From contig NC_016489.1 in NCBI RefSeq assembly GCF_000227115.2, positions 496,001-560,000 on the forward strand: DNA of 64,000 nucleotides, given 5' to 3'. Shown here piece by piece: positions 13,458 through 63,934 of the stretch. Position numbers and translations under genes: made by a program. Below the pieces are notes generated by a model. The model searched no databases, was not told the DNA's origin, and saw nothing but the letters and a program-made list of their open reading frames with translations. Position 1 is the first letter of the stretch. Each line of letters opens with the position of its first letter. The stretch is from Naumovozyma dairenensis CBS 421. Lineage: Eukaryota > Ascomycota > Saccharomycetes > Saccharomycetales > Saccharomycetaceae.

Positions 13458-13499
13458 TCATACATAAGATCCATGGTTGTTTCTAGATCCAAGATCGAA

Positions 13500-13543
<44 letters not shown>

Positions 13544-15572
13544 CAATTCGGGTGTTGTTGTAGTTGTTGTTGCCAGGTATTGACGATGAAGAAGATGGAG
13601 ATGATGATGATAATATGTTGTATTTATGATGTCTTNNNNNNNNNNNNNNNAAAGAATATTCATAGTCGTCATCAATTCTTGATCTGTTGCTGGTGTATTG
13701 ATTATTATTATTAAAAGTAAATGGATCATTATTATTACTATTATTCTCTTGATTGTAATTATTTAAATTCATTTCTGTTGTTGCCGTTGGTTCATATAAC
13801 ATCATTCCAAAGAATTGATAATAATATTCTTCACCTAATATTTTTAATAATATTTTCCTCTTTAGATCAAATTTATAACTTAATGGGATTAATATCATGA
13901 AAATCATTGGTAAATAATTGTTTAAGAATTTGATTAATGGTATAATGGATAAATCATTAAATAATGCGATTTCAAACCCTGTTTCGTATCTTCCGATATC
14001 ATCATCATTATTATGATGAGTATTTATTTCTTTTTTATGTGGGATTAAGATCATAAAATTGAAACATAATGGGAATAATAATCTACTTGAATATAATGAA
14101 TAATATAATGAATTTAATGGATTACTTTTCCCATTAGAAATCAAATGGAAGTTATTAAATTTGAATTTACTCATGGCATATAGTGATGTTAAAGTATTAT
14201 ATTGTAAGATGATTAAATTTAATATTAAATTATACCATGCGCCATTTATGGCTCTTTGGAATATGAAAGTATGGAATTTTTCTGGTAAAATTTCTAATAA
14301 GATTATTAAAATTGATAAACACATGGATGTTACACCGATGATTAGAAGCATTAAAGTTTTAATAGATTGAGAAAGTTTAATTTTCATATTTTTTGTCAGT
14401 GTGGAGGTGTTATTATTATTATTATTATTAATATTGGGGTTAGTTGCTAAAGTATGGATAATTTCATTTGATTTCAATTGATTATAAATATAATTATAAT
14501 AATTGCCAATGAATTTATTATAGTTACTATTCAATTTATTCAAAGTTTTTATTGGAGATGATGTAGTATTTTGAGAGTTGGGATTATTATTATTATTATT
14601 ATTATTATTTATAATAATTTCATTTGATAAATTTAATAAAGCTAGTTTCCCTTGAATTTCAAATTTACATTCATTTAATAATTGATTAAAGATAATGTCA
14701 TTTCCCTCAGGGTCTTCATTAGTTGATATAATCAATTTAGCATTATCTAATAGATTCAATTTGGAATCATTTAAATCATCATTTGTCTTACTTAATTCCA
14801 CAAACAATTTATTATTTTCAGATTCCTTTATTGAAGCGAATGAAGAAGAAAAGGAGAAGAATGATATATTTGATAAAGCTGAATTCAATAAAGTTTTTGG
14901 TGTTAAGATTAAACCTGTAGATAAAAGGATTAACATATAACTCAAAGAATATAAATGAGTCAATGATATGATTAAAGGTTTAAAATCTTTGATGTTATGA
15001 CCCGTGGTAGAGATAAGATAAATGATTCCAATGATTATTCCTAGGAGACATAGAAGATAGAATTTTAAATTTTGATAGATGGCCATTGTAATTCTCTTCT
15101 TGATTTGATGATGTTGTATAGAATATTTTAAAGAGATGAAAGACATTAATACAGGGATAATGAACCAACAAAGAAAGAATTGAATCCAATAAATGAATTG
15201 CCATGTCATTTTCAAGATTGGTTTATAATCTTGAAATGTTTCTCCAAAAGTGGGAAGGGATGATCTTTTGTATAATGCGGTTGTAGTTGTAGTTGTAGTT
15301 GTAGTTGTTGCTGTTGCTGTTGTATCGTTTATTGGAGGGATGATATTATTAGATGTATGATTATTTGATAATTTGGTTTTCATTATTGTAGCGTGATATA
15401 TATCGAATGGTAAAAGGTATGCAGTGATTAAAAGGACCAACATATTAATTGTCAACACTAATAGAGTGAATGGGAATGTATTTTTATGTAATTTGAATGA
15501 AAAGTATCTGTTGATACAAGCCAATGATGAAACCAGGGCTAACAGGCATCCGAATGTTATTAGAAGTATCAT
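13458..15572 (-). CDS. LMBR1-domain multipass membrane protein, no S. cerevisiae ortholog recognised
   Basis: About 704 residues counting a 15-base N gap at 13636-13650 that keeps the frame. I place the start at the ATG at 15572 (MILLITFGCLLALVSS), which begins a first transmembrane helix; upstream in-frame codons come from an ATAAC repeat and look non-coding. About nine hydrophobic segments are visible. The segment WQFIYWIQFFLCWFIIPVL near residue 140 resembles the conserved WR-x-x-YW-x-x-F-x-LTW core of LMBR1/LMBD2 proteins. Poly-Asn blocks break the cytoplasmic loops and the C-terminus. LMBD2-type proteins elsewhere are plasma-membrane proteins linked to GPCR signalling; the role in yeasts is unknown. 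It sits between SOL1 and EGO4, where S. cerevisiae has nothing. Confidence 0.75.
13499..13543. repeat. (ATT)n tract encoding poly-Asn
   Basis: Fifteen or so tandem ATT units, read on the minus strand as consecutive AAT (Asn) codons near the C-terminus of the LMBR1-like protein. It is likely length-variable. Confidence 0.9.
13636..13650. other. Assembly gap (15 N)
   Basis: A run of 15 unknown bases inside a low-complexity part of the LMBR1-like gene. The reading frame is kept across it. Confidence 1.
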
Positions 15573-15721
15573 ATCATAAAAAAGAGGAAGTATACGTGTG
15601 TGTAGCTCGGTTGTAGGGGAGTGGATTCTCATATATTTGTGTATAATAAGACTGGCAGCTGGGAGCAACGATGGCTCTTTGTAATGACACTCTTGTTGTT
15701 GATGATAATAATAGCTACAGT

Positions 15722-15766
15722 AATAACATAACATAACATAACATAACATAACATATCATAACATAA
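15722..15766. repeat. (ATAAC)n microsatellite
   Basis: About eight tandem copies of ATAAC upstream of the LMBR1-like gene. In the minus-strand frame it yields a spurious Met-Leu-Cys-Tyr leader. Confidence 0.9.
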
Positions 15767-24424: not shown

Positions 24425-25255
24425 ATGTTTTCAAGACGAATAATTGATTTACTCTCCAAGGGTGTACCTCAAACAATTTACTCATACAAGAAACCATTCA
24501 TTGTGAAATTCGGTTCCATTTCATTATCATTAGTCTTTCTCACCTATGGTTGCACATTTTTCAACACTTCATGGAACACAGCCAAAGTCTATTACAGAGA
24601 TGCTGATGCCCAGGAAAAGAAATCTATTCTGTTTTTAATAAAGACATACGGTCCCATGACCATGGCTATAATGCCCATAGGGTTATCCCTTGCATCATTA
24701 TATCTATCATCAAGAATGGTCACTAATATCGTTTATATACCTCCCAATTTGAAAATATCTACATTACCACATTATCAAATTACCAGAACTTCACCAATCC
24801 TTGGAAGATCTATCACGACAATGAAACCGGTGGGTCAAATAGTCAAAAGTAAGGGTAATGGTAAAATTTTTACTGGAGAAGGTAAACAAGGAATTGATGA
24901 TAAGTCAACTTTTGNTTTCTTTTTAGTAGATAAGAGTCCCGATTTAAGGTACCCTTGGAATAAATTTTATATCGTCTCTAGAAATGGTTCTGTATTGAAA
25001 TCAGATGGTCGCATTATAGATGATATGTTCCAACCAGGGTTGTCAGATACTACTGATGCATCTGTAAGCAAGAACAAATCTTCCCAGAAAGAACAAGAAT
25101 CTGAAGAAATGAGAGTGAAAATATTCGATTCAATAGTCAGGTCCAGTGTTGGAAATTCATCTACCTTCCATTCTAAACATAAGGACATTGCCGCAAGGAA
25201 AATAGTTAAGAACCTTTTACATAAAAACAAGACTAAGAAAAACGATATCCTGTAA
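24425..25255 (+). CDS. MRX15: Mitochondrial inner-membrane ribosome receptor Mrx15
   Basis: A 276-residue protein matching YNR040W (256 residues), a TMEM223-like protein that with Mba1 holds the mitoribosome at the inner membrane for co-translational insertion. Two transmembrane segments are visible, at about residues 30-47 and 76-95, separated by a soluble loop; the C-terminal matrix domain is basic and ends in Lys-rich sequence. One ambiguous base at 24915 makes one residue uncertain. Gene order ZRG17-MRX15-COQ2 is conserved. Confidence 0.9.
   Translation: MFSRRIIDLLSKGVPQTIYSYKKPFIVKFGSISLSLVFLTYGCTFFNTSWNTAKVYYRDADAQEKKSILFLIKTYGPMTMAIMPIGLSLASLYLSSRMVTNIVYIPPNLKISTLPHYQITRTSPILGRSITTMKPVGQIVKSKGNGKIFTGEGKQGIDDKSTFXFFLVDKSPDLRYPWNKFYIVSRNGSVLKSDGRIIDDMFQPGLSDTTDASVSKNKSSQKEQESEEMRVKIFDSIVRSSVGNSSTFHSKHKDIAARKIVKNLLHKNKTKKNDIL
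24915..24915. other. Ambiguous base in MRX15
   Basis: Single N inside the MRX15 coding frame; the frame is intact on both sides. Confidence 1.
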
Positions 25256-26588: not shown

Positions 26589-26870
26589 CTCGACGATACC
26601 TTTCTCTTCTTTTTTTCTTCCCTCTTTTGCTTATTTGTTGCCGCCACCTCTGAGATTCCTACTACATCAACGGTTTTTTGACGTTTTCTATGTATTAAAA
26701 TCGACTATAAACGATTATGCCGATACATCCCACATAAAAATTCTTTCTTAATCAACAACAACTAATATATATAAAAAGGGCATAGAACCAAATTGAATCA
26801 TTGGATATCACGAACTGTCCCATTAAATATATATCCAGCAAAAAAATCTAAATACAACAAAAGTAAGAAC

Positions 26871-28150
26871 ATGGCTATTTACATCGCATCCACCACAGCT
26901 CCAGTTAACATAGCAGTATGTATAGATGCACAAGATATATACCTTTCTTTCCATCTCACAAACGTATGTACTAACAGGAACGAATATAGACTTTGAAATA
27001 TTGGGGGAAAAGAGATACACAATTAAATTTACCTACGAATTCCTCCATTTCAGTTACTTTATCACAAGATGATTTAAGAACATTAACTACAGCCGCTACA
27101 TCCCCTGATTTCACCAAGGACACATTATGGTTAAATGGTAAAGAAGAAATTACAGCCATGAGTAATCAAAGAACAATCAATTGTCTTAAGGCACTACGTG
27201 ATTTAAGGTATCAATTAGAATTGAAAGATTCGAAATTACCAACTTTATCTAAATGGAAATTACATATTGTATCAGAAAATAATTTCCCCACTGCTGCTGG
27301 ATTAGCTTCATCAGCTGCTGGGTTTGCCGCCTTTGTTGTGGCTATTGCTAAATTGTATCAATTACCTCAATCAATGTCTGAATTATCAAAGATTGCAAGA
27401 CAAGGGTCTGGATCTGCTTGTAGATCATTATTCGGAGGGTTTGTCGCATGGGAAATGGGTCAATTGGAAGATGGTTCTGACTCCATGGCTGTCCCGGTGA
27501 ATGAATTGAACGATTGGTCATCAATGAAAGCTATTATCTTGGTTGTAAGTGACTCGAAAAAGGATACCTCCTCTACAATGGGGATGCAATTGACTGTGAA
27601 GACATCTGATCTTTTCCAAGAACGTGTGAAAACTGTTGTTCCTAAGAGATTTGTTCAAATGAAAGAAGCCATTATTAACAAAGATTTTGCAACATTTGCA
27701 GAATTGACTATGAAGGATTCTAATTCTTTCCATGCTACATGTTTGGATTCATTCCCACCAATCTTTTATATGAATGACACCTCTAGGAAAATTATTAAAT
27801 TATGTCATAAGATTAATGAATATTACGGAGAGAGTGTGGTAGCTTATACTTTTGACGCAGGTCCAAATGCTGTACTATATTATCTAGAAGAAAATGAAAA
27901 TAAATTATTACCATTTATTTATAAATCATTTAATCAAGTTCCTGGATGGGACTCCAAATATACATCAAATGATTTACAAGATTTCTTGAAGAATTTCCAA
28001 GAGTCTATATTACCAAAATTTGCTGAACATAATGAACTGGATGAAGAAGTACATAAAGGTGTTTCAAGAGTCATATTGAGTAGAGTTGGTGCTGGTCCTC
28101 AATCAACTGATAAATGTTTAATTGATTCCTCTACTGGTTTACCCAAATAA
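26871..28150 (+). CDS. MVD1: Mevalonate pyrophosphate decarboxylase, with one intron
   Basis: A GHMP-family enzyme that converts mevalonate-5-diphosphate to isopentenyl diphosphate. Spliced length is 401 residues (S. cerevisiae 396). Exon 1 (26871-26915) gives MAIYIASTTAPVNIA; exon 2 (26990-28150) resumes with TLKYWGKRD, joining exactly at the point where the S. cerevisiae protein reads PVNIATLKYWGKRD. The phosphate-binding loop is FPTAAGLASSAAGFA near residue 117; GSGSACRS and the catalytic-Asp region TFDAGPNA near residue 307 are present. The S. cerevisiae gene is intronless. The order COQ2-MVD1 is conserved. Confidence 0.95.
26916..26989 (+). other. Spliceosomal intron in MVD1 (74 nt)
   Basis: 5' site GTATGT at 26916, branch site TACTAAC at 26969-26975, 3' site TAG at 26987-26989, phase 0. 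Removing it restores an uninterrupted alignment to Mvd1. Confidence 0.93.
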
Positions 28151-28550: not shown

Positions 28551-30932
28551 TTAATTCTCAACTTCTTTAATTTTGTCGACATCCCCTGATGTTATGGTTG
28601 AATATTTCCAAATTCTTGCCTTGCAATCACCACTACCAGTAGCGAAAACATTGTATTTTGGACCTAATGGATATCCATTCGCTACAGCTACAGATATGAC
28701 TGAATTTTTATGACCTTGTAACATCAATAATGGATTACCGGATTTTTTATCCCAAAACAATACACCACGATCTTTAGAGCCCGACAAGATATATTCATCA
28801 TTTTGACTCGTGGTGACAGATAAGACGAAATCTTTATGACCAACATATGTTACTTCACAAGTAGCAGAAGTACCATTACTAGCTCTATTACTATTATTAT
28901 TATTATTAGTACCATTTGAAGATGAATCATTACCATTATTATTTGAATTAACATCATTACCTAGATTCCATAATTTGACAGATTTATCTAAGGACCCACT
29001 AACGACTTCATTCCCATCTCTTGTGAAGACAACACTATAAACGGAATCTTGATGACCAGTCCCCAATTCATTTTCAGAATCCAATCTTTCCACTAGGAAC
29101 CCCGTGGTAGAATCCCAAACTCTCACAGCACGATCTAAAGAACCAGCAGCGATAAATCTTCCATCATGAGGGGATACGGCAACAGTAGTGACACCATCTT
29201 CAATGGATAAAGTCAAAGAACATTGACCTGTACGTAAATCCCATATCCTAACGGTTCTATCACCAGATCCAGAGACTAATTTTTGTCCATCGGGGAAATA
29301 ATCCAATGAGTAAACATCTTGTTCGTGACCCTTTAAGACCATTACAATTTTACCCTCTTGAATATCCCAAATTCTAATTAATTTATCTTCAGCACCTGTA
29401 GCTAAGAATTTCCCATCTGGAGAGAAACAAACTGATCTGATGTATAAATCAGTGGAGGTGGAATTAGAATCCAATTTAACGTTATCATCAGATAATTTGG
29501 CAATTAATTCACCAGTGGATACTCTATATACTTGAGTGGTCTTGTTACAACCTGTAGCTAAGAATTCACCGTCATAACTAAATTTAACACAACATACTAC
29601 AGAGGAATGGTCTAATGATTTATGTAATTCGACGTCCAAAGTACGTGGTAATGCTGGGTTGAAAAGGACGTGATAATCTTCAGTTTGCTTTTTCAAATTG
29701 GATGGGAATTGATGAGTGTCTAAGTTTAATAAGAATGGTGGGATTGGTTTTAATTGACTAGCTCTTTGTTCGAATGGGACTAGATATTGTTGTGGTTGAT
29801 TTTGATCTATGGTTGTTGTTGTTGTTGTTGTGACTGGTTTGGTATCTTCTATTGGTGATGTAGTTTCCTCATCTTTAGTCGTAGTAGCGGCAATAGTAGT
29901 GGTAGTTGGTGATGCTGCTACTGCGTTTGTTTCTTGTTCTTGTTTGGCTTCGATTTTTTGTTCATTAATTGGAGGTATCACAGCATTAGTAGGTGATAAT
30001 TCATTTGTATTTGTACCTGTTGGGAATGTAACTGCAGGTAATTGGTTTGAAGTAGATATAGCTGGTAAAGTATTGGAATTGTTTTCAATAGTAGTAGTAT
30101 TGGTAGTAGCTGCAGTAGGAGCTTGAGAGACTGTAGAGGAAGCAATTGGACTAGTTGTTGCAGCATTAGCATTAGCAGGTGTTGTAGTAGCTGTAGTTAC
30201 AGCTGCTGGGGTGGCATTACCCATTGCTGCAGCATTAGCAACTGGGACTACCTTAGGGAATGGTTGAGTTGGAACGGATGGGATTAATGGAGCAACAGTT
30301 GGAGAATTTTGCATTTGGCCTTGTGCTTGCGGTTGGGCGCTCGTGGAACCAGGTTGAATAACAGGTGCAGATACTGGAGGTAATTGAGAACCTAACGCGC
30401 TTATGAGCGGATGCAGCGTCATGTTTCCATTAGCTTGAACATTTGGTTGTTGAGGTTGAAAATTTGCATTTCCAACAGCAGGAGGAGATGCAGCATTGGC
30501 AGCATTAGCAGCATTAGCTTGTTGCTGCTGTTGCTGTTGCTGTTGTTGCTGCTGTGCTTGTTGCTGCTGCTGCGCTTGTTGTTGTTGAAGTTGCTGTTGT
30601 TGGGCTTGTTGCTGTTGGACATGTTGCTGCTGTTGTTGTTGTTGGGAACTTAAAGCTGCGATTTGTTGATCCTTTTGGGCAATTTCCAATTTCAATCTAT
30701 TTATTTCTTCTTGATACGAATCTTTATGTTTTCTATGAGTCAATTCCAATTCATAGACAGTATTTCTAATTTGTTGCATCTCTGCCAATTGTTGATTCAC
30801 TTTAATTTCATAGTCCTTTTGATTTTGTAGCCGATAGGTGTTTGCCTCAGTGGCGACATTGTTGAATTCTATTCTAATGCCTTCCAAAAGTTCGTTCAAC
30901 TTATCCTGAGAAGTGGTTGTATTAGAGGTCAT
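28551..30932 (-). CDS. TUP1: General transcriptional corepressor Tup1
   Basis: A 793-residue protein (S. cerevisiae Tup1 has 713). The N-terminal helix (residues 1-90) resembles the tetramerisation and Cyc8-binding region, beginning [16 protein letters not shown] Gln-rich block (about 95-140) with Ala-rich interruptions and a long Thr/Ala/Pro-rich linker follow, then seven WD40 repeats from about residue 440 with clear IRIWD, VRIWD, VRVWD, VKLWN and ARIWK strand ends. A poly-Asn/Ser insert lies between repeats near residue 665. With Cyc8 it represses many regulated genes. In S. cerevisiae the gene is on chromosome III (YCR084C); here it lies between MVD1 and AGA1. Confidence 0.97.
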
Positions 30933-32417
30933 ATTAATAGTATTGATATACGGTGTTATTTCTTATTGCTCTTTGCGTCGTCGAATAAAAAGTGTAAAGA
31001 ATAACAACTTATCTTATCGTGTTTTGCTTATGTTCCGTTTCTTTCTATCTTAACTCGTACGCAATGTTATTATGTGCGCTGCAATTTTTTGCTGTAGCAA
31101 TGTCCTCTTCTTGTTGTTGTTCTTTGTAAATCAGATCCGTTGGTGATTCTTTTGATCCAATCTGTTACAAGAGTTATTGGAGGTGCGTCTCTGTTAATTC
31201 CTATGTGTATACGCACGTATCTTATGTAATATAATGATTTAACAACTGCGTAGCTTACGTACGTATGTTAAAAAAAAGCGTTGTTTGTTTTCTTGTTTTC
31301 TTGTTTTCTTGTTTTCTTGTTTGTTTGTTGTTCTTTCTGTCTTTTTGTCTTTTTGTCTCCGTTCGTTCTCTCTTTTTCTCGTTTTCTCGTTTTTCTTGAA
31401 TTTTTGTTGATGTTTTCCGTTCGAAAATGGATCCGTCGGTTACTGTACGGATAGGCGGCGTTTACACTTCCGTTCCCGTATTACGTATTGTTTATTTGTT
31501 TGCCATTGGCGGCTGTGGGAATGCAAGATCGTGTTACACGGGCGACATTGACACTGTGGGGATTAGGGTTTAGGCTTAACTCGAACTCGACCCTGGCGTG
31601 TACGTAACGTACGCGGGCGCTATCATACCTAAGCTCGACTGCCCTCCCCTAATTTTATATAAAGTGTTCACTTAACGAACGTATAGATTCTATTACAGTA
31701 TGTACCCATTTATATTTTACAGAGAACGTGTCACGTGGTCGTGTTAGCTGAAGGGTTCTCAGAAATGAGTATCCTTATCGAAAGTTTATGTCAAGATAGT
31801 TATCTACCTTCTGAGTCGGGGGGTGGGTTGGCTGTTGATAGTCTCAATAAGGAGCGAATTAAAATTAACAATTATATTATAACTTTACTAAATAAAAAAA
31901 TCTGTAGTGTTTATATGCAACTTCAACAACACAAGATAAGGTATACGCGCGTACTGTGTATCCATCTATACGTTGCCACTACTATTTCTTTTTTCAATCT
32001 TTTGTTTCTTTCGGTCAGTGACATTTAATTAGCCTGTTAACTAAAAATACATCCTTACTTACTCTCTATGGTATGGGTTTCTGATATCGAGGAATTTAAA
32101 GAGATAGACACAATAAAATTGGATAGATAATTACACATTATTTATTGCAAGACGTTCGAAAAATGGAAAAAAAAATGTATTTCACAACATGACACCATTT
32201 CTATGAACACCCTAAAAGTAAGTTCTATATAAATTAAACTAAAATTACCTCTCTGAATATAGGCATTTATAATTTTTTCCCATTTTCCTCTCTTGCCTTT
32301 CACTTATTGTTATTATATTTCTTTTTTTTTTATTTTCACTTATTTTTTTTCTTGTCAACACAAAATAAAACCAAAAAGTAAAACTATCAATTAAAATCTC
32401 TCACAATATTTTCTAAA
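30933..32417. other. Long divergent intergenic upstream of TUP1
   Basis: About 1.5 kb. Contains a TTTTCTTG array at about 31284-31325, a less AT-rich stretch around 31435-31650 with a TTAGGGTTTAGG motif at 31563-31574 (Tbf1-like), and GTCACGTG near 31728. No supported gene. A large regulated promoter for TUP1 is the simplest reading. Confidence 0.5.
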
Positions 32418-33167
32418 ATGGCAAACTACAATATCTTAACTTTCTTTATCTCTTTATTTCTCGTTTTCCAATCCATTGCTACTTTATCGGTTGTTTCGAG
32501 CAATGAAACCATTTCGCCCTATAATAAAACTACGAATCGCATTATGGATTTGCTAGAAATACAATCATGTATGATTTATTTGAATAATGAGGACAAAGAT
32601 GGAAGTATCAATGCAATGGAGTATCAAAAAGCTTTACTAGGTCACATAAATGACACAAGGTCTGGTTTTGAAAAGTTCTATAGTAAGTACCATGACAATC
32701 CTGTAATAATGAGAATTATCAGGCATGTTTTGGATTCTAAAATGGATAAGATAGCTAACCGAATCATGTATGCAAAGCCAGCTAATTTCTTGTATATTTT
32801 GAGAAAATTCTCAACTTTGCTACATGACATAAGAGAAAATGGGCCGGAATCGTATAAGGAGATGATCGTGAGGAATCATAATATTACGAATGAAGATGGA
32901 CCCGATAGAGAACTTGCTCAATGGTTAGTCAACGTGGTAGAGAAGGGAATGAATAAAGACGGTAACATTGCAGCTACCAAAAGATTTACAAAGCATGTTC
33001 AAATACTGAAAGAAACAGCAGCAGTCCTGGGGGTATTTGGTGCGGTGGCTCATGCTTGCGTATTGACAGCAGGTGGTGTATGTGCCGTCTTAATGATTGC
33101 CACCGGTATTGGGATGACATTTTGGGTATTCCATCTAATTCGTGAATTGACTGATCTCTTCGGTTGA
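32418..33167 (+). CDS. Orphan secreted/membrane protein with an EF-hand-like loop
   Basis: A 249-residue protein I cannot assign to a named family. Residues 1-27 form a signal peptide. Four N-glycosylation sequons (N29, N36, N78, N155) support secretory entry. Residues 57-68 read NEDKDGSINAME and fit the EF-hand loop pattern at positions 1, 3, 5, 6, 8 and 12; a weaker copy at 177-188 (GMNKDGNI) lacks the final acidic residue. The C-terminus (about 200-245) is a Gly/Ala/Val-rich hydrophobic stretch of two segments, a possible membrane hairpin. It lies in a gene-poor island between TUP1 and AGA1. Secreted-toxin or adhesin-like roles are conceivable but unsupported. The ATG at 32418 is the only reasonable start. 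Confidence 0.75.
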   Translation: MANYNILTFFISLFLVFQSIATLSVVSSNETISPYNKTTNRIMDLLEIQSCMIYLNNEDKDGSINAMEYQKALLGHINDTRSGFEKFYSKYHDNPVIMRIIRHVLDSKMDKIANRIMYAKPANFLYILRKFSTLLHDIRENGPESYKEMIVRNHNITNEDGPDRELAQWLVNVVEKGMNKDGNIAATKRFTKHVQILKETAAVLGVFGAVAHACVLTAGGVCAVLMIATGIGMTFWVFHLIRELTDLFG

Positions 33168-34800
33168 TGAACGTCGTCTCCTTTTTCTTTTTGTTAGTTT
33201 TATCTAATATATATATATATTCAAGTCATAGATAACCGCATCATGTAGCATTTTTTTTGTAGAAGATTCAACAATAAATAATCTATATTTCTTTCCCCAG
33301 AATACGTCTTGATTAAAGAACTCCACCTGTCTGATAAAGGTATCAATAGACACACATATCGTATCGAATTGATTGCCCTTCCACCTGTCACTTCAATGGC
33401 ATTATTAAATATTGCTGCTGTTAATTGATGTCTTAACCAACTCTTCTGGGATGCAGTTTAATGAAAGGAAGTTTCATCTAATGGCAGAATACCTTACTTT
33501 TAAGTTAATTCGGCTACATGGTTTTTTACTTTCTATGGGAGGTTTAAGAATCAGCAAACATGATTGACAGGGAATCTGTTTGATTACCAATAAATAGGGT
33601 AAGAGTTGACTAATTCTTAGATCTTGGTTGACAATAACATTTCGCCAAGCTACTCTAGGTCCCGAGTACTCCATTAAACGTAACAGAAGAAACGATACCG
33701 AATTCCCATTGGCTGTGGTGAGGCAGCCGATACTATTTCCATTTTATGATAAGCTCATTTATTTTGAACGACTCGTACTTTCTTCTTATCGATGCCATCT
33801 TCAGCAAATTTGTGATTATCAATTTTATGGTTACTTCGATCGTATTGGAAGTTGTACCGCTTGTAAAACACCGTGTACTCTCAATCCTGATAGTGTATGT
33901 GTTTCTTGTTTTCGATCAGCGGGCTTACAGTGACATCGTTGTTCGTAGGCAAATGTCCATTCTACCTTCCGTTATCTTTATAGTATTATCTTTATGTTCG
34001 CTGCAGTTGGGGTAATACTATGGGTTCTTCATGTAATGAGAATCCTTTTCAATTTTGGTATCATCTTCTAGGTCGGATATTAACAATTCTATAATTATTA
34101 TATAGTTTGCATAAATTAAATCTGTAAAATAAAAAATACGTCATTCTTATTTATTTGTTTATTTGTTCAATATTTTGAAAATTTAACACACATATATGGT
34201 CCTCTACACACCCGACTGGAAATTTATCGCCAATCTATTGGAATATTTCATATTTGGAGTTCAGGATTCTATTTGCACGCTTGCATGTATATGCATGGCC
34301 ACTTTGTAGTCTTAAAGGCTACCTATAACTTCCCTCGTTTTTGTACAAAATCAACCATTTAATTCTTGAATGTACTAATACCATACTAACAAAGTGACAA
34401 AAGTTGACGACGCAAAATACCTGACGACATAAATTACCTTTTCGCCTACTTTATTCCACGGCCTTTTAAATTCATTATTACTGTATTATTTTTTAACTAA
34501 CTTGTTTATCTGTGTAAAACTTGAGACGTTTTGTTATATTCCCATTTCAAAATAACAGGGGGAAAAGTTGATAATTGAATCGTAAAAGAGTAACGCAGTC
34601 TATTGAAGTTGGTAAATTATTCCAGACATGTTCCTTTGGTGATACTCTGGTCCTCATCTCTTGTGGGTGAGAGAAATATACAAATTTTGTAAAATGTATG
34701 TAGAAGCATTCTCAATCCACCTCCTTTGGGTTATATAACATCTAAATAGATTCCGTAAGTGTTAAAAGACTCTTCTTCAAATTTCATGGAATTTTATTTA

Positions 34801-35062
34801 TGTTAGATATAAATTACTTCCTATTGATAATCTAGGGTTATCTATGAATACGTTCACGTCTAATATACAGGTAGTTACAGTCATTTATTTTATATAATAG
34901 GCATAGAGGATAATAAAGTCAATATTTGAAGGCCCAAAGATATCTATCATTAATTATAGTAGTTCTTGAAAAGATCCTCAAGCTCGACAGGTCATTCACA
35001 AACGCCGGTGATACGCTTTATTATGATCGTTGTTATACTTGATCCGGGTACAACTACTAGTC
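34801..35062 (+). repeat. Diverged dispersed repeat, copy A (possible solo LTR remnant)
   Basis: Shares an ordered series of similar words with 63650-63934: a CTATTGATA start, GGGTTATCTATGAATACGTTCA, GAGGATAATAA, AGTAGTTCTTGAAAAG, TATGATC and TACAACTACTAG. Overall identity is roughly 60-70 percent by eye, with indels. It starts with TGTT, as Ty LTRs do, but no terminal inverted repeat or target duplication could be confirmed. Confidence 0.6.
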
Positions 35063-35680
35063 AGCTTTTATTCCCCCATTTTTAAATCTATAAAATTCTG
35101 GTATGGCTCAATTCAATTGAATCAACCTCACATTATATTAATCATATATTGGTTGCCTTCGAGCTATTTCGGCCATTGGAGTATATCTAATGTTTAGAGA
35201 AATGAATGCATCAACTTCTATCTCAAATAGCGATGCGGATTACATGGTCTATAGTCTTCGCAGTTTGTACCTTTTTTTTTAAGATATCGAAACAAGTTTT
35301 CATCTTGTTCCAGCGGACAGATTTACAAACTAGATATCTTTTGCTGTGGGAATATCTGGCATTTTTTACTCCCTTATTTTAAGCAAATGAACTTGATAAC
35401 CATCATAAATGCAATAATTGCAATATTTTTGTTAGTTTCATTTTACTTAAAGTCTAGCATGCTTATTGGGAAACATCTGTCAAGTTCCATACCTACAAGA
35501 ATATTAGCACTCAAACCGAATCAGGAAAATTGGCTTCCGTATGGACGTGGTAACGTTACCTAATTCATGTAAAACTCCTTATTTGGATTTTGTGTACTTT
35601 TTATGTACCTACAAACTACTTATTTGAACCTCCCAGTATATGTATCAGTCCTGTGAACTTTAACCCCCAAAAATATATTT

Positions 35681-35687
35681 TGAAACA
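35681..35687 (+). promoter_or_regulatory. Candidate pheromone response element upstream of AGA1
   Basis: TGAAACA, the Ste12 binding site, lies 509 bases before the AGA1 ATG. AGA1 is pheromone-induced in S. cerevisiae through several such sites; only one exact copy was seen here and it is far upstream. Confidence 0.35.
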
Positions 35688-36189
35688 ATTTTCTAACCTA
35701 ATTAGCCTCAAAAGTTTTTCTGATCCGTGTAATTACCTAAACGGGTAATTACATAATGCGACGCCGTCTCAACTTCCTACGTATTTTGTTGACCCAGATC
35801 TGCCTCTCCAATGGTTTCTCAGTGGTTACACAACTCAGATTCCTCCTCGAACAAACATAAATATATACATACTCAGATACCTATGTACACACATAAGCAG
35901 TATAGCAAAACAAAAAAGAAACTTCTCTTTCCCTGCCAACTACGTAAGAAATAGACGCAGGGAAGGAATTGGACAAAGACGATGTATCAGACCAAAACAA
36001 TAATGGAATATTAGTGCATATTTTCAGTCCATTTTTTTCCATTTTTTTGCTTATTATATAAATATGTTAGATTTATTGACATTTATCAAAATTCCCTTCC
36101 ATTCTTTTTGAAGATAACTTGTGGAATTGGAAAGTATGAACCACTGAAAGAAACAATTAAAACACATCAATAATACAAAAGGTAAACAA

Positions 36190-37893
36190 ATGATTGTACC
36201 CATTTCAATATTATTTCCGATCACTCTCCTGTTATCCATCGTTAATGGTCAACAAGCAGATGAATCATCCACTATAACAGGGACAACTTCTGTTCCAAAA
36301 ATTGTAACAACTTCTGACGCTAATGGTCAAGTGGTCACTGTAACTTCATACGATTTATCGACTTTCACCTCTACAGTTTGCCCAACATGTACAGCAAAAA
36401 CACCAACTACAACTATCAAGATCACTTCTAAGTACACTTCCTACGTTTGTCAAACTTGTCACACTACGACAATTCAAGAACCAAGCTCAAGCGCTCCATT
36501 ACCAACAACGACTATCCCAATCACTTCAAAATCCACAGTATATGTTTGTGCTACCTGCGAAACAATCACTCTTTCAACTTCCAGCAGTATACCTACAACA
36601 TCTTCTGTTGTGTCAACCAGCACTACCATCATTTCTTCTATTCCACCCTCTTCTTCACATGTTAGCTCAAGTACTCAATCTCTGTCCTCCTCCGAGCCTC
36701 TCTCTTCCTTATTGCCCTCATCCTCATCTGCATTAATATCCTCAACTTCATCAATTACCTCAAGTATAGATACTACTTCTTCGATCTCATCTTCATCTGT
36801 TTCATCACATCCATCATCCAGCTCTACTATAGTATTGTCTTCCTCTATCCCATCAACTACTGCAAGTGAAACTAGTTTAATTTTGACCTCATCTTCCACT
36901 TCAATTGTCATTTCTAAATCATCTACCTCAGCTTCCACTTCCACTTCAACTGAAACAACAACAAGTTCTACTTCGCCATCATCATCCTTCTCTTCTACAG
37001 TTCCTCCAAACACTGAACTAACCAGTACTTCTTCATCAGCATCCCCATCTTCTAGCGTCCCAATATATTCCTCTTCAACATCTGTTACTTGTTCTGGTAC
37101 CCAGTGTCTATCTACTGAGTTATCATCATCATCATGCACAATCTTATCAAGTTCTATTCGTTACAATACAACCTCTACTCTAAGCAGCTCGACGTCACTT
37201 GTATCTACACCTACTGTTCACATTTCAACGATAACCACGACTGTCCATAACACTACCAGTATCTACACATCTACATGTCCCTTGACTACAGTACACGTTT
37301 CTTCTACAGTTCTTATTTCCATCGAATCCTGTTCTGGTGGTGTATGTACCGAACACACTACCACTCCTTCCACAATCTCCTCATCATCAACAGAGTTAAG
37401 TCAATCTTCTGTGTCTACCATTGTTTCTACAATAACCACAACATCACCAACTCCATCCAAAACTCCACTATCTTCCTCTTGTGAGGGTTTGGGATGTTCT
37501 GTTAAAGCCCAATCAACTACTTCTGAGTGTATCGGTACTACTTGCAAGTTAGCTAGTACGGAACAAACAACTTCAACACCTCCAGTACCTATTGTTACCA
37601 AAACAACTACTTCAGAAACGAGTTCCTCATCTTCATTCTCATCTACCCCAGTAACCACCCCTGCTACAACCATGACCTCTGTCACTTCTACCAGGACTAC
37701 CCCTACTCCTACAATTTCGTCTCCATCTACTTCAGGATTTATCTATCAATCCAGTTCCTCGTCTTCAGTTCCATCTTCATCAGGAACATCGACTGTGCTA
37801 ACCGTAAGTCAATACGAAGGCAATGGGTCCACCCTATCAAGATCCTCTGTATTCAGTATATTTGTCACTTTCTTAATGACATTGATTTTCTGA
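36190..37893 (+). CDS. AGA1: Aga1-like anchorage subunit of a-agglutinin (GPI cell-wall mucin)
   Basis: A 567-residue Ser/Thr-rich wall protein (S. cerevisiae Aga1 has 725). Residues 1-21 are a signal peptide; the C-terminal 15 residues (FSIFVTFLMTLIF) are a GPI-attachment signal. Paired-cysteine modules CPTC, CQTC and CATC occur near residues 70, 95 and 125, and the segment ITSKYTSYVCQTCHTT closely matches Aga1. The pre-anchor TVSQYEGNGS also matches Aga1 (TISQYMGSGS). Aga1 holds the Aga2 adhesion subunit by disulphide bonds in mating a cells. FIG2 is the ohnolog; similarity and position after MVD1 favour AGA1. Confidence 0.88.
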   Translation: MIVPISILFPITLLLSIVNGQQADESSTITGTTSVPKIVTTSDANGQVVTVTSYDLSTFTSTVCPTCTAKTPTTTIKITSKYTSYVCQTCHTTTIQEPSSSAPLPTTTIPITSKSTVYVCATCETITLSTSSSIPTTSSVVSTSTTIISSIPPSSSHVSSSTQSLSSSEPLSSLLPSSSSALISSTSSITSSIDTTSSISSSSVSSHPSSSSTIVLSSSIPSTTASETSLILTSSSTSIVISKSSTSASTSTSTETTTSSTSPSSSFSSTVPPNTELTSTSSSASPSSSVPIYSSSTSVTCSGTQCLSTELSSSSCTILSSSIRYNTTSTLSSSTSLVSTPTVHISTITTTVHNTTSIYTSTCPLTTVHVSSTVLISIESCSGGVCTEHTTTPSTISSSSTELSQSSVSTIVSTITTTSPTPSKTPLSSSCEGLGCSVKAQSTTSECIGTTCKLASTEQTTSTPPVPIVTKTTTSETSSSSSFSSTPVTTPATTMTSVTSTRTTPTPTISSPSTSGFIYQSSSSSSVPSSSGTSTVLTVSQYEGNGSTLSRSSVFSIFVTFLMTLIF

Positions 37894-63649: not shown

Positions 63650-63934
63650 TGTTGCTAGATTTAATTTGCCTCTTATTGATACTTCAGGGTTATTTATTAA
63701 TACGTTCAGGTATAATATATAGAGTCTAGTATTATAGGTTCCGTTAAATAATAAGGAGCTAGGATAATAATATGATGTGGTGAATATCTAAAGGTTCTAA
63801 GGTTGGTAACTTTCTCTGAAGTAGCTTTGGTTGCAAAGTTATTCTTAGTAGTTCTTGGAAAAGCCCTCAAACATGTAAGCATAATATACCTTCATATGAT
63901 CTTCGAGGAACTTGACCAGAATACAACTGCTAGG
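63650..63934 (+). repeat. Diverged dispersed repeat, copy B (possible solo LTR remnant)
   Basis: Counterpart of 34801-35062 in the same orientation. It begins TGTTGCTAGATTT and shares CTTATTGATA, GGGTTATTTATTAATACGTTCA, AGGATAATAA, AGTAGTTCTTGGAAAAG, TATGATC and TACAACTGCTAG in order. No protein-coding content. Confidence 0.6.

Follow-up and report, generated by a model that had tools for sequence, protein, structure and literature searches.

The closest described counterparts of the locus reported here are yeast killer toxin genes and the wtf genes of fission yeasts. In six yeasts, 24 KKT genes and 14 pseudogenes are described, most of them no more than ~20 kb from a chromosome end, with the KKT2 gene of Naumovozyma dairenensis placed on chromosome III (PMC7888664). 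Kkt proteins are given as 153-390 amino acids, typically near 340 when full length, and K1L is credited with ten cysteines (PMC7888664). The toxic alpha subunit of K1 itself is described as two hydrophobic helices around a cysteine-bearing stretch (PMC6739482). N. dairenensis is reported to inhibit other yeasts and to be immune to itself, with satellite dsRNA undetected in the account given there, and its K1-like gene NdKKT1 gave inhibition zones from Saccharomyces cerevisiae (PMC7888664). For the KKT genes of K. africana, where a GAAAAA motif is reported, capture from a dsRNA killer satellite has been suggested (PMC7888664).

The wtf genes often lie near solo LTRs, encode predicted multi-transmembrane proteins, and include pseudogenes; the LTRs are reported to be dispensable for killing (PMC5478263). 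They were first thought to be restricted to one species and were later reported in four fission-yeast species (PMC9562144). Here we describe a dispersed gene family of N. dairenensis, one intact member of which lies in the window (the whole stretch of 64,000 nucleotides that was analysed), and compare it with these systems.

The window gene and its family

The open reading frame (ORF) at 32418-33167, on the forward strand, is intact and encodes 249 amino acids followed by a stop codon, as seen in the ORF listing of the window. A signal-peptide-like N-terminus covers codons 1-27 (32418..32498, + strand); it is recognized by hydropathy only, its cut point is a guess, and the intact paralogues described below start similarly. 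The underlying hydrophobic segment falls inside residues 2-29, with Kyte-Doolittle means (19-residue) of up to 2.04. Sequons are present at N29, N36, N78, and N155. Residues 196-242 (33003..33143, + strand) form a hydrophobic double segment in hydropathy and alignment; it is continuously hydrophobic, with 19-residue means of 1.40-2.14, and includes Cys214 and Cys222. The initial annotation had listed this ORF, the signal peptide, the four sequons, and the hydrophobic C-terminus, all of which are present, the signal peptide again by hydropathy only. A TATATAA sequence at 32226..32232 (+ strand) lies 192 bases before the ATG, and the same heptamer is found at -148 and -149 in the intact genes of the second clade; TATA-like sites are frequent here by chance.

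The gene had been regarded as an orphan. Searches of its own genome uncovered eight or more additional related places, one being a relic within the window, and divide the family into clades B, to which the window gene belongs, and A, which are 27-28% identical overall. Ten units were recognized: three genes are intact, five copies are disrupted, and two are relics; these counts come from the best-scoring candidates of the genome searches and are lower bounds. Besides the window gene, clade B includes a split copy at C11:483061-483761, the greater portion of which carries the annotation NDAI_0K02140 and shows 80% identity across 61% of the query, a disrupted copy at C10:453751-454492, and a relic of the 5' flank at C5:1019929-1020372, found by DNA search. 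Clade A comprises two intact genes, at C1:1434881-1435612 and C9:573146-573877, which are 93% identical to each other, together with disrupted copies on C7, C5, and C10 (the last at 570882-571602) and the window relic, which matches as protein at 33973-34068 and as DNA from 33939. Two of the paralogues carry database names, NDAI_0K02140 and NDAI_0A06310.

Alignment of the three intact genes reveals a signal-peptide-like start, Cys51, the motif TNEDGPD and then W169, the sequence RFTK (with K before it in B and P in A), and C214-x7-C222 followed by IGxxxWVxHxI within the second hydrophobic segment; each protein, 249 amino acids long in B and 244 in A, has three cysteines. TNEDGPD, at residues 157-163 (32886..32906, + strand), is the longest block identical across the three genes, and residues 150-175 share 46% identity between clades, compared with 28% overall. 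Immediately ahead of the C-terminal hydrophobic region, Lys188-Arg189 (32979..32984, + strand) forms a Kex2-like site in the context KRFT, which reads PRFT in the intact A genes. The window gene, like the split copy, has dibasic KR at RF, where both intact A genes have PR; the site is not kept in the disrupted C10 B copy.

The ratio of nonsynonymous to synonymous divergence (dN/dS) is 0.17 between the intact A genes (bootstrap 0.08-0.30; 244 codons) and 0.29 when the window gene is compared with the longer of the ORFs in the C11:483 kb copy (0.17-0.50; 152 codons), so that the proteins are under purifying selection; because the B comparison includes a possibly dead copy, the window gene may be more tightly constrained than its ratio implies. 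In the intact A pair (L006 1507-2238 and L007 1486-2217), dS is 0.05 over the last 62 codons (183-244, with 2 synonymous differences) versus 0.21 over codons 24-182, which hints at recent gene conversion at the 3' end. The window gene and the C11:483 kb copy are similar in DNA up to 33160, just ahead of the stop codon. Both the split C11 copy (FPFSIFILYYICIL) and the C10 copy extend into a hydrophobic tail that the window protein lacks.

Protein searches covering 5.8 billion proteins at E values up to 10 returned three N. dairenensis proteins only. The word-based search with the B protein missed P0003, its own 27%-identical paralogue, and the profile search scored the best 7996 candidates by shared words; equally distant relatives in other yeasts could therefore escape such searches, whereas closer ones are excluded. 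Viral contigs held no close relative, and Pfam, NCBIfam, and PHROGs gave weak or sub-threshold matches only. The protein could be matched to no known family in the protein and family libraries. Among openly readable papers, screened by title and the opening of the abstract, no description of the family turned up, and only the KKT paper (PMC7888664) was clearly relevant.

The top sub-threshold Pfam match is to Plasmodium UIS3 (PF11567; residues 37-104, 16.8 bits, E 0.0089), the likeness consisting of a helical stretch. We rejected it, the score being 16.8 bits for the whole protein and 17.4 for residues 28-189 against a cut-off of 25, with one of nine members matching. Matches in the PDB were taken as chance: the best for the B query was to 2vwa, a Plasmodium protein (E 0.0039, residues 32-104), and a dog lipocalin was matched by A (E 0.025) and by the family profile (0.04) over residues ~157-226, two results that are not independent, since the profile includes A. 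AlphaFold2 models built from an input of three sequences are of low confidence (mean pLDDT 41.9 and 42.6) and uninformative, and a Foldseek search with the first of them found nothing at E <= 0.001 in BFVD or PDB, a result of little weight.

The EF-hand-like loop

Residues 57-68 of the window protein (32586..32621, + strand) read NEDKDGSINAME, followed by Y, and had been described as a nearly canonical EF-hand loop. The likeness is real to the extent that 12 of the 13 positions of the EF-hand pattern are matched, the sole miss being N for D at position 1. A score of 12/13 or better is nevertheless reached in 3.0% of 20000 shuffles of residues 28-249, so the loop stands above typical chance yet is not rare; none of the other 21 ORFs in the window that reach 150 amino acids and are free of undetermined residues has an equal one. 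The degenerate second loop proposed at residues 177-188 misses three of the 13 positions and is at chance level, 99% of shuffles containing a loop with three misses or fewer.

At the corresponding position the split C11 copy has NEDKHRSTDALEY and the C10 B copy NYANKHESTDALEC, with key residues changed in each; the EF-like residues D61, G62, and I64 are restricted to the window copy among the copies compared, and no EF-hand-like loop is present in the aligned intact A genes. The Pfam EF-hand_5 model scores 11.8 bits on residues 28-189, against a cut-off of 25.9, and is unlisted for the whole protein. The predicted model of the window protein is formally helix-loop-helix at residues 57-68, but with pLDDT near 40, and the A-type model is likewise helix-loop-helix at that place, with no EF loop there. 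What resembles EF-hand proteins is a single loop of one copy close to the consensus; it differs from theirs in being unconserved, unpaired, and below the Pfam cut-off. Since the loop is limited to the window copy, calcium binding is not the function of the family, and it was discarded as such on the three grounds of the unconserved loop, the chance-level second loop, and the sub-threshold Pfam score; the window copy by itself might bind calcium. A narrower reading, in which the window protein is a calcium-dependent surface or secreted protein acting through residues 57-68, has in its favor the 12 matched positions, a score that 3.0% of shuffles equal; with the key residues altered in both other B copies, the loop missing from intact A genes, the second loop at chance level, and the Pfam score far under cut-off, we regard it as very improbable.

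Locus and spread of the units

The region between TUP1, which has Tup_N and WD40 Pfam matches, and AGA1 had been called an otherwise empty island, a description that does not survive: in addition to the window gene, a relic unit, a deaminase fragment, and an LTR-like element are present before the next long ORF, at 36190. The ORF labelled AGA1 has no Pfam match at E 0.001, and Rfam has no match within 30900-36300. Two GGCGGC cores, which we take to be URS1-like, lie at 31454-31513, between TUP1 and the B unit and ~0.9 kb upstream of the window gene. The B unit itself (31875..33160, + strand) comprises ~540 bases of 5' flank plus coding sequence and is 79.6% identical to the C11:483 kb copy. 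It is followed by the relic A unit (33939..34800, + strand), made up of an A coding remnant from about codon 200, a deaminase fragment, and a sequence that we call segment X. The deaminase fragment (34190..34447, - strand) is the decayed 3' part of a TAD3-like gene that is uninterrupted on C9.

Leaving out the two relics, related units share 0.8-1.9 kb of DNA, including 5' flank, and are 77-86% identical in the best-matching stretch of each pair. The window gene is carried on such a dispersed unit and was therefore probably inserted here, as the initial annotation had supposed. Because ~510 bases of upstream flank are common to C1 and C9, retroposition of mRNA is disfavored as the route of spread. 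All five A units off C9 have a decayed, antisense fragment of the deaminase gene downstream; four of these fragments come from a whole-genome search and the fifth, on C10, solely from a search of selected loci, and those of C5 and C10 are weak. Only on C9 does a stop-free deaminase gene, presumably TAD3, stand beside an intact A gene, its 190-aa ORF matching the deaminase domain. With the deaminase gene intact there and decayed at the other A units, C9 is the likely donor and looks like the source locus. On C9, segment X is found upstream of the A gene, but on C1, on C5, and in the window it is found downstream of the deaminase fragment. On the deaminase side, C1, C5, C7, and the window all diverge from C9 at about one point; a single circular or tandemly duplicated intermediate would explain both the order of segment X and the common point of divergence.

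These results bear on the possibility that the ancestor of the family was a toxin gene acquired from a dsRNA killer satellite. K. africana KKT genes offer a precedent, as proposed in the source cited above (PMC7888664), and GAAAAA occurs at -30 in the intact A gene of C1, one of the three intact genes. The motif is absent within 120 bases of the ATG in the other two, however, the viral contigs hold no close relative, and the shared flanks and likely donor locus indicate spread at the DNA level, all of which makes such a capture improbable.

The relic A unit is followed directly by a solo-LTR-like dispersed repeat of ~330 bp (34801..35131, + strand), which by eye starts with TG and has CA at 35131-35132. 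It has 45 further genome matches, many of them partial, and hence at least 46 matches with itself included. Seven of the ten units have an LTR-like match no more than 500 bp away (five within 100 bp and eight within 2 kb), where chance would give ~1.1% per unit at 500 bp. Distances were computed from 81 matches, a lower bound, merged into 57 places; one LTR piece was inherited by both C1 and C7, the two units in the window are adjacent, and both units and distance cut-offs were picked after the data had been seen. The association is strong and may reflect Ty targeting rather than Ty-driven mobility.

Proximity to LTRs raises the question of a selfish intragenomic killer or meiotic driver of the wtf kind, a spore poison that protects its carriers and spreads copy by copy beside LTRs. 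By description the two families are alike in being dispersed, LTR-near, pseudogene-rich, and of membrane type, with a conserved upstream flank, and the seven units within 500 bp far exceed the chance rate. On the other hand, three of the ten have no LTR match within that distance, and, since LTRs are dispensable for wtf killing, LTR proximity is weak evidence of drive. The present genes also differ from wtf in being single exons free of introns, in having two hydrophobic segments instead of many and a signal-peptide-like start, and in being found in one species rather than four; nothing points to a second, antidote product. The full 9-mer recognized by Ndt80 is absent from the 520 bases upstream of all three intact genes, where its short core occurs once or twice versus 0.3-0.4 times expected. 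We consider a driver quite unlikely. The same low weight attaches to its fullest form, a budding-yeast counterpart of wtf in which an LTR-associated gene would poison non-carrier cells or spores through the hairpin, protect through the glycosylated precursor, and spread as rearranged, circular or tandem DNA from a single source locus.

Of nine units measured, the nearest to any contig end lies 129 kb away, the tenth being the relic beside the window gene. tRNA genes occur near copies in three of eight stretches of 10 kb, which we informally judged unremarkable.

Several other features of the window were recorded. A 476-aa ORF at 62027-63457 matches the Hyphally regulated cell wall protein N-terminal domain over residues 12-328 (PF11765, E 2.9e-87), which identifies it by homology as a predicted Hyr/Iff-type surface protein, and a fragment of the same LTR-like repeat family lies at 63657-63726 (C11:559657-559726). 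In the mevalonate diphosphate decarboxylase gene (26870-28150), a short open stretch carrying a plausible start peptide (MAIYIASTTAPVNIAV) precedes the main frame at 26990 but is read in a different frame, which suggests a small intron. The 763-aa ORF at 13458-15749 (- strand) includes a run of undetermined residues, and the ORF at 24425-25255 a single one.

A possible killer-type function

The initial interpretation pictured an unmatched protein of secretory-pathway type that might act on membranes, and to this extent we retain it; its orphan status, empty island, and EF-hand have been set aside above. The reading that we tentatively prefer, at rather less than an even prospect, is that the family encodes a chromosomal killer-type, membrane-active protein from which a Kex2-like cut frees a C-terminal hairpin. 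The gene has been dispersed over the chromosomes in DNA units as long as ~1.9 kb that include several hundred bases of 5' flank. From the residues alone we infer that the precursor chain enters the ER, where it would be N-glycosylated, and that a candidate site for a Kex2-type protease follows KR189 (PR in clade A); Kex2 is able to cut after PR. The cut would release a C-terminal piece of ~60 residues, consisting of two hydrophobic helices and the C-x7-C turn, and the freed hairpin would insert into a membrane; the N-terminal part, helical and containing Cys51, might serve as a carrier, a recognition part, or a self-protecting precursor. The family, its conserved features, the purifying selection, and the dispersal are observed, whereas secretion, cleavage, pairing of the helices, and membrane damage are hypothetical steps of this scheme.

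Support for the killer-type reading comes from the dispersed copies, five disrupted and three intact, which resemble killer-gene arsenals, and from purifying selection together with features kept across 27% identity. The inhibition of other yeasts and the self-immunity reported for N. dairenensis, in which satellite dsRNA went undetected (PMC7888664), and the paired hydrophobic helices of K1 alpha (PMC6739482) also count in its favor. The family further resembles K1 and the KKT genes in an ER-directed precursor, in a hydrophobic helix pair with one or more cysteines between (by hydropathy and alignment), in a candidate basic cleavage site, and in being multi-copy, patchy, and pseudogene-rich, with N. 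dairenensis itself among the carriers. It differs in showing no detectable sequence similarity to them, the distinction having been drawn indirectly, through genome searches, place, and description. Searches with B (E <= 1e-3) and A (E <= 10) returned only family units among the best candidates, none of which falls on C3 or within 20 kb of contig ends, the sites of KKT genes. Proteins of 244-249 amino acids with three cysteines and a C-terminal hairpin also lack the four-domain layout and many cysteines of K1 and fall short of the ~340 amino acids typical of full-length KKT proteins, although Kkt proteins range from 153 to 390 amino acids, so that length alone cannot exclude KKT membership; the 129 kb to the nearest contig end is a further difference.

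Several observations count against a killer. The NdKKT1 inhibition zones mean that the killing shown by this species requires no further toxin, and no homology to known toxins was found in the protein and family-library searches. The cleavage motif is short, is PR only in A, and is lost in the disrupted C10 B copy. Finally, the C-terminal hydrophobicity is typical of true transmembrane segments, which implies retention in the membrane.

This last property fits a resident two-pass membrane protein, with the signal peptide removed, the glycosylated helical domain facing the ER lumen or the cell exterior, and the C-terminal hairpin as anchor; such a protein would serve its own cell, for example at the surface or in self-protection against the species' own killer toxins. 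Hydropathy means reach 2.14 in B and 2.68 in A over ~47-58 residues, values typical of anchors, and purifying selection is as expected of a resident protein. For a housekeeping membrane protein it would be unusual to have decaying copies scattered over the genome and no relative found elsewhere, and a conserved basic cleavage-like site ahead of the hairpin in the intact genes also speaks against it. Because the hydrophobic stretch is strong enough for membrane retention, we nonetheless hold this explanation to be nearly as likely as a killer, which still leaves it doubtful.

Should the family prove to drive, a budding yeast would be seen to harbor a selfish killer family. If instead it kills, as we tentatively prefer, one yeast genome would hold a second, apparently unrelated killer gene family, located outside the subtelomeres. 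A likely donor locus can be named in C9, and the route by which the units spread is therefore testable.
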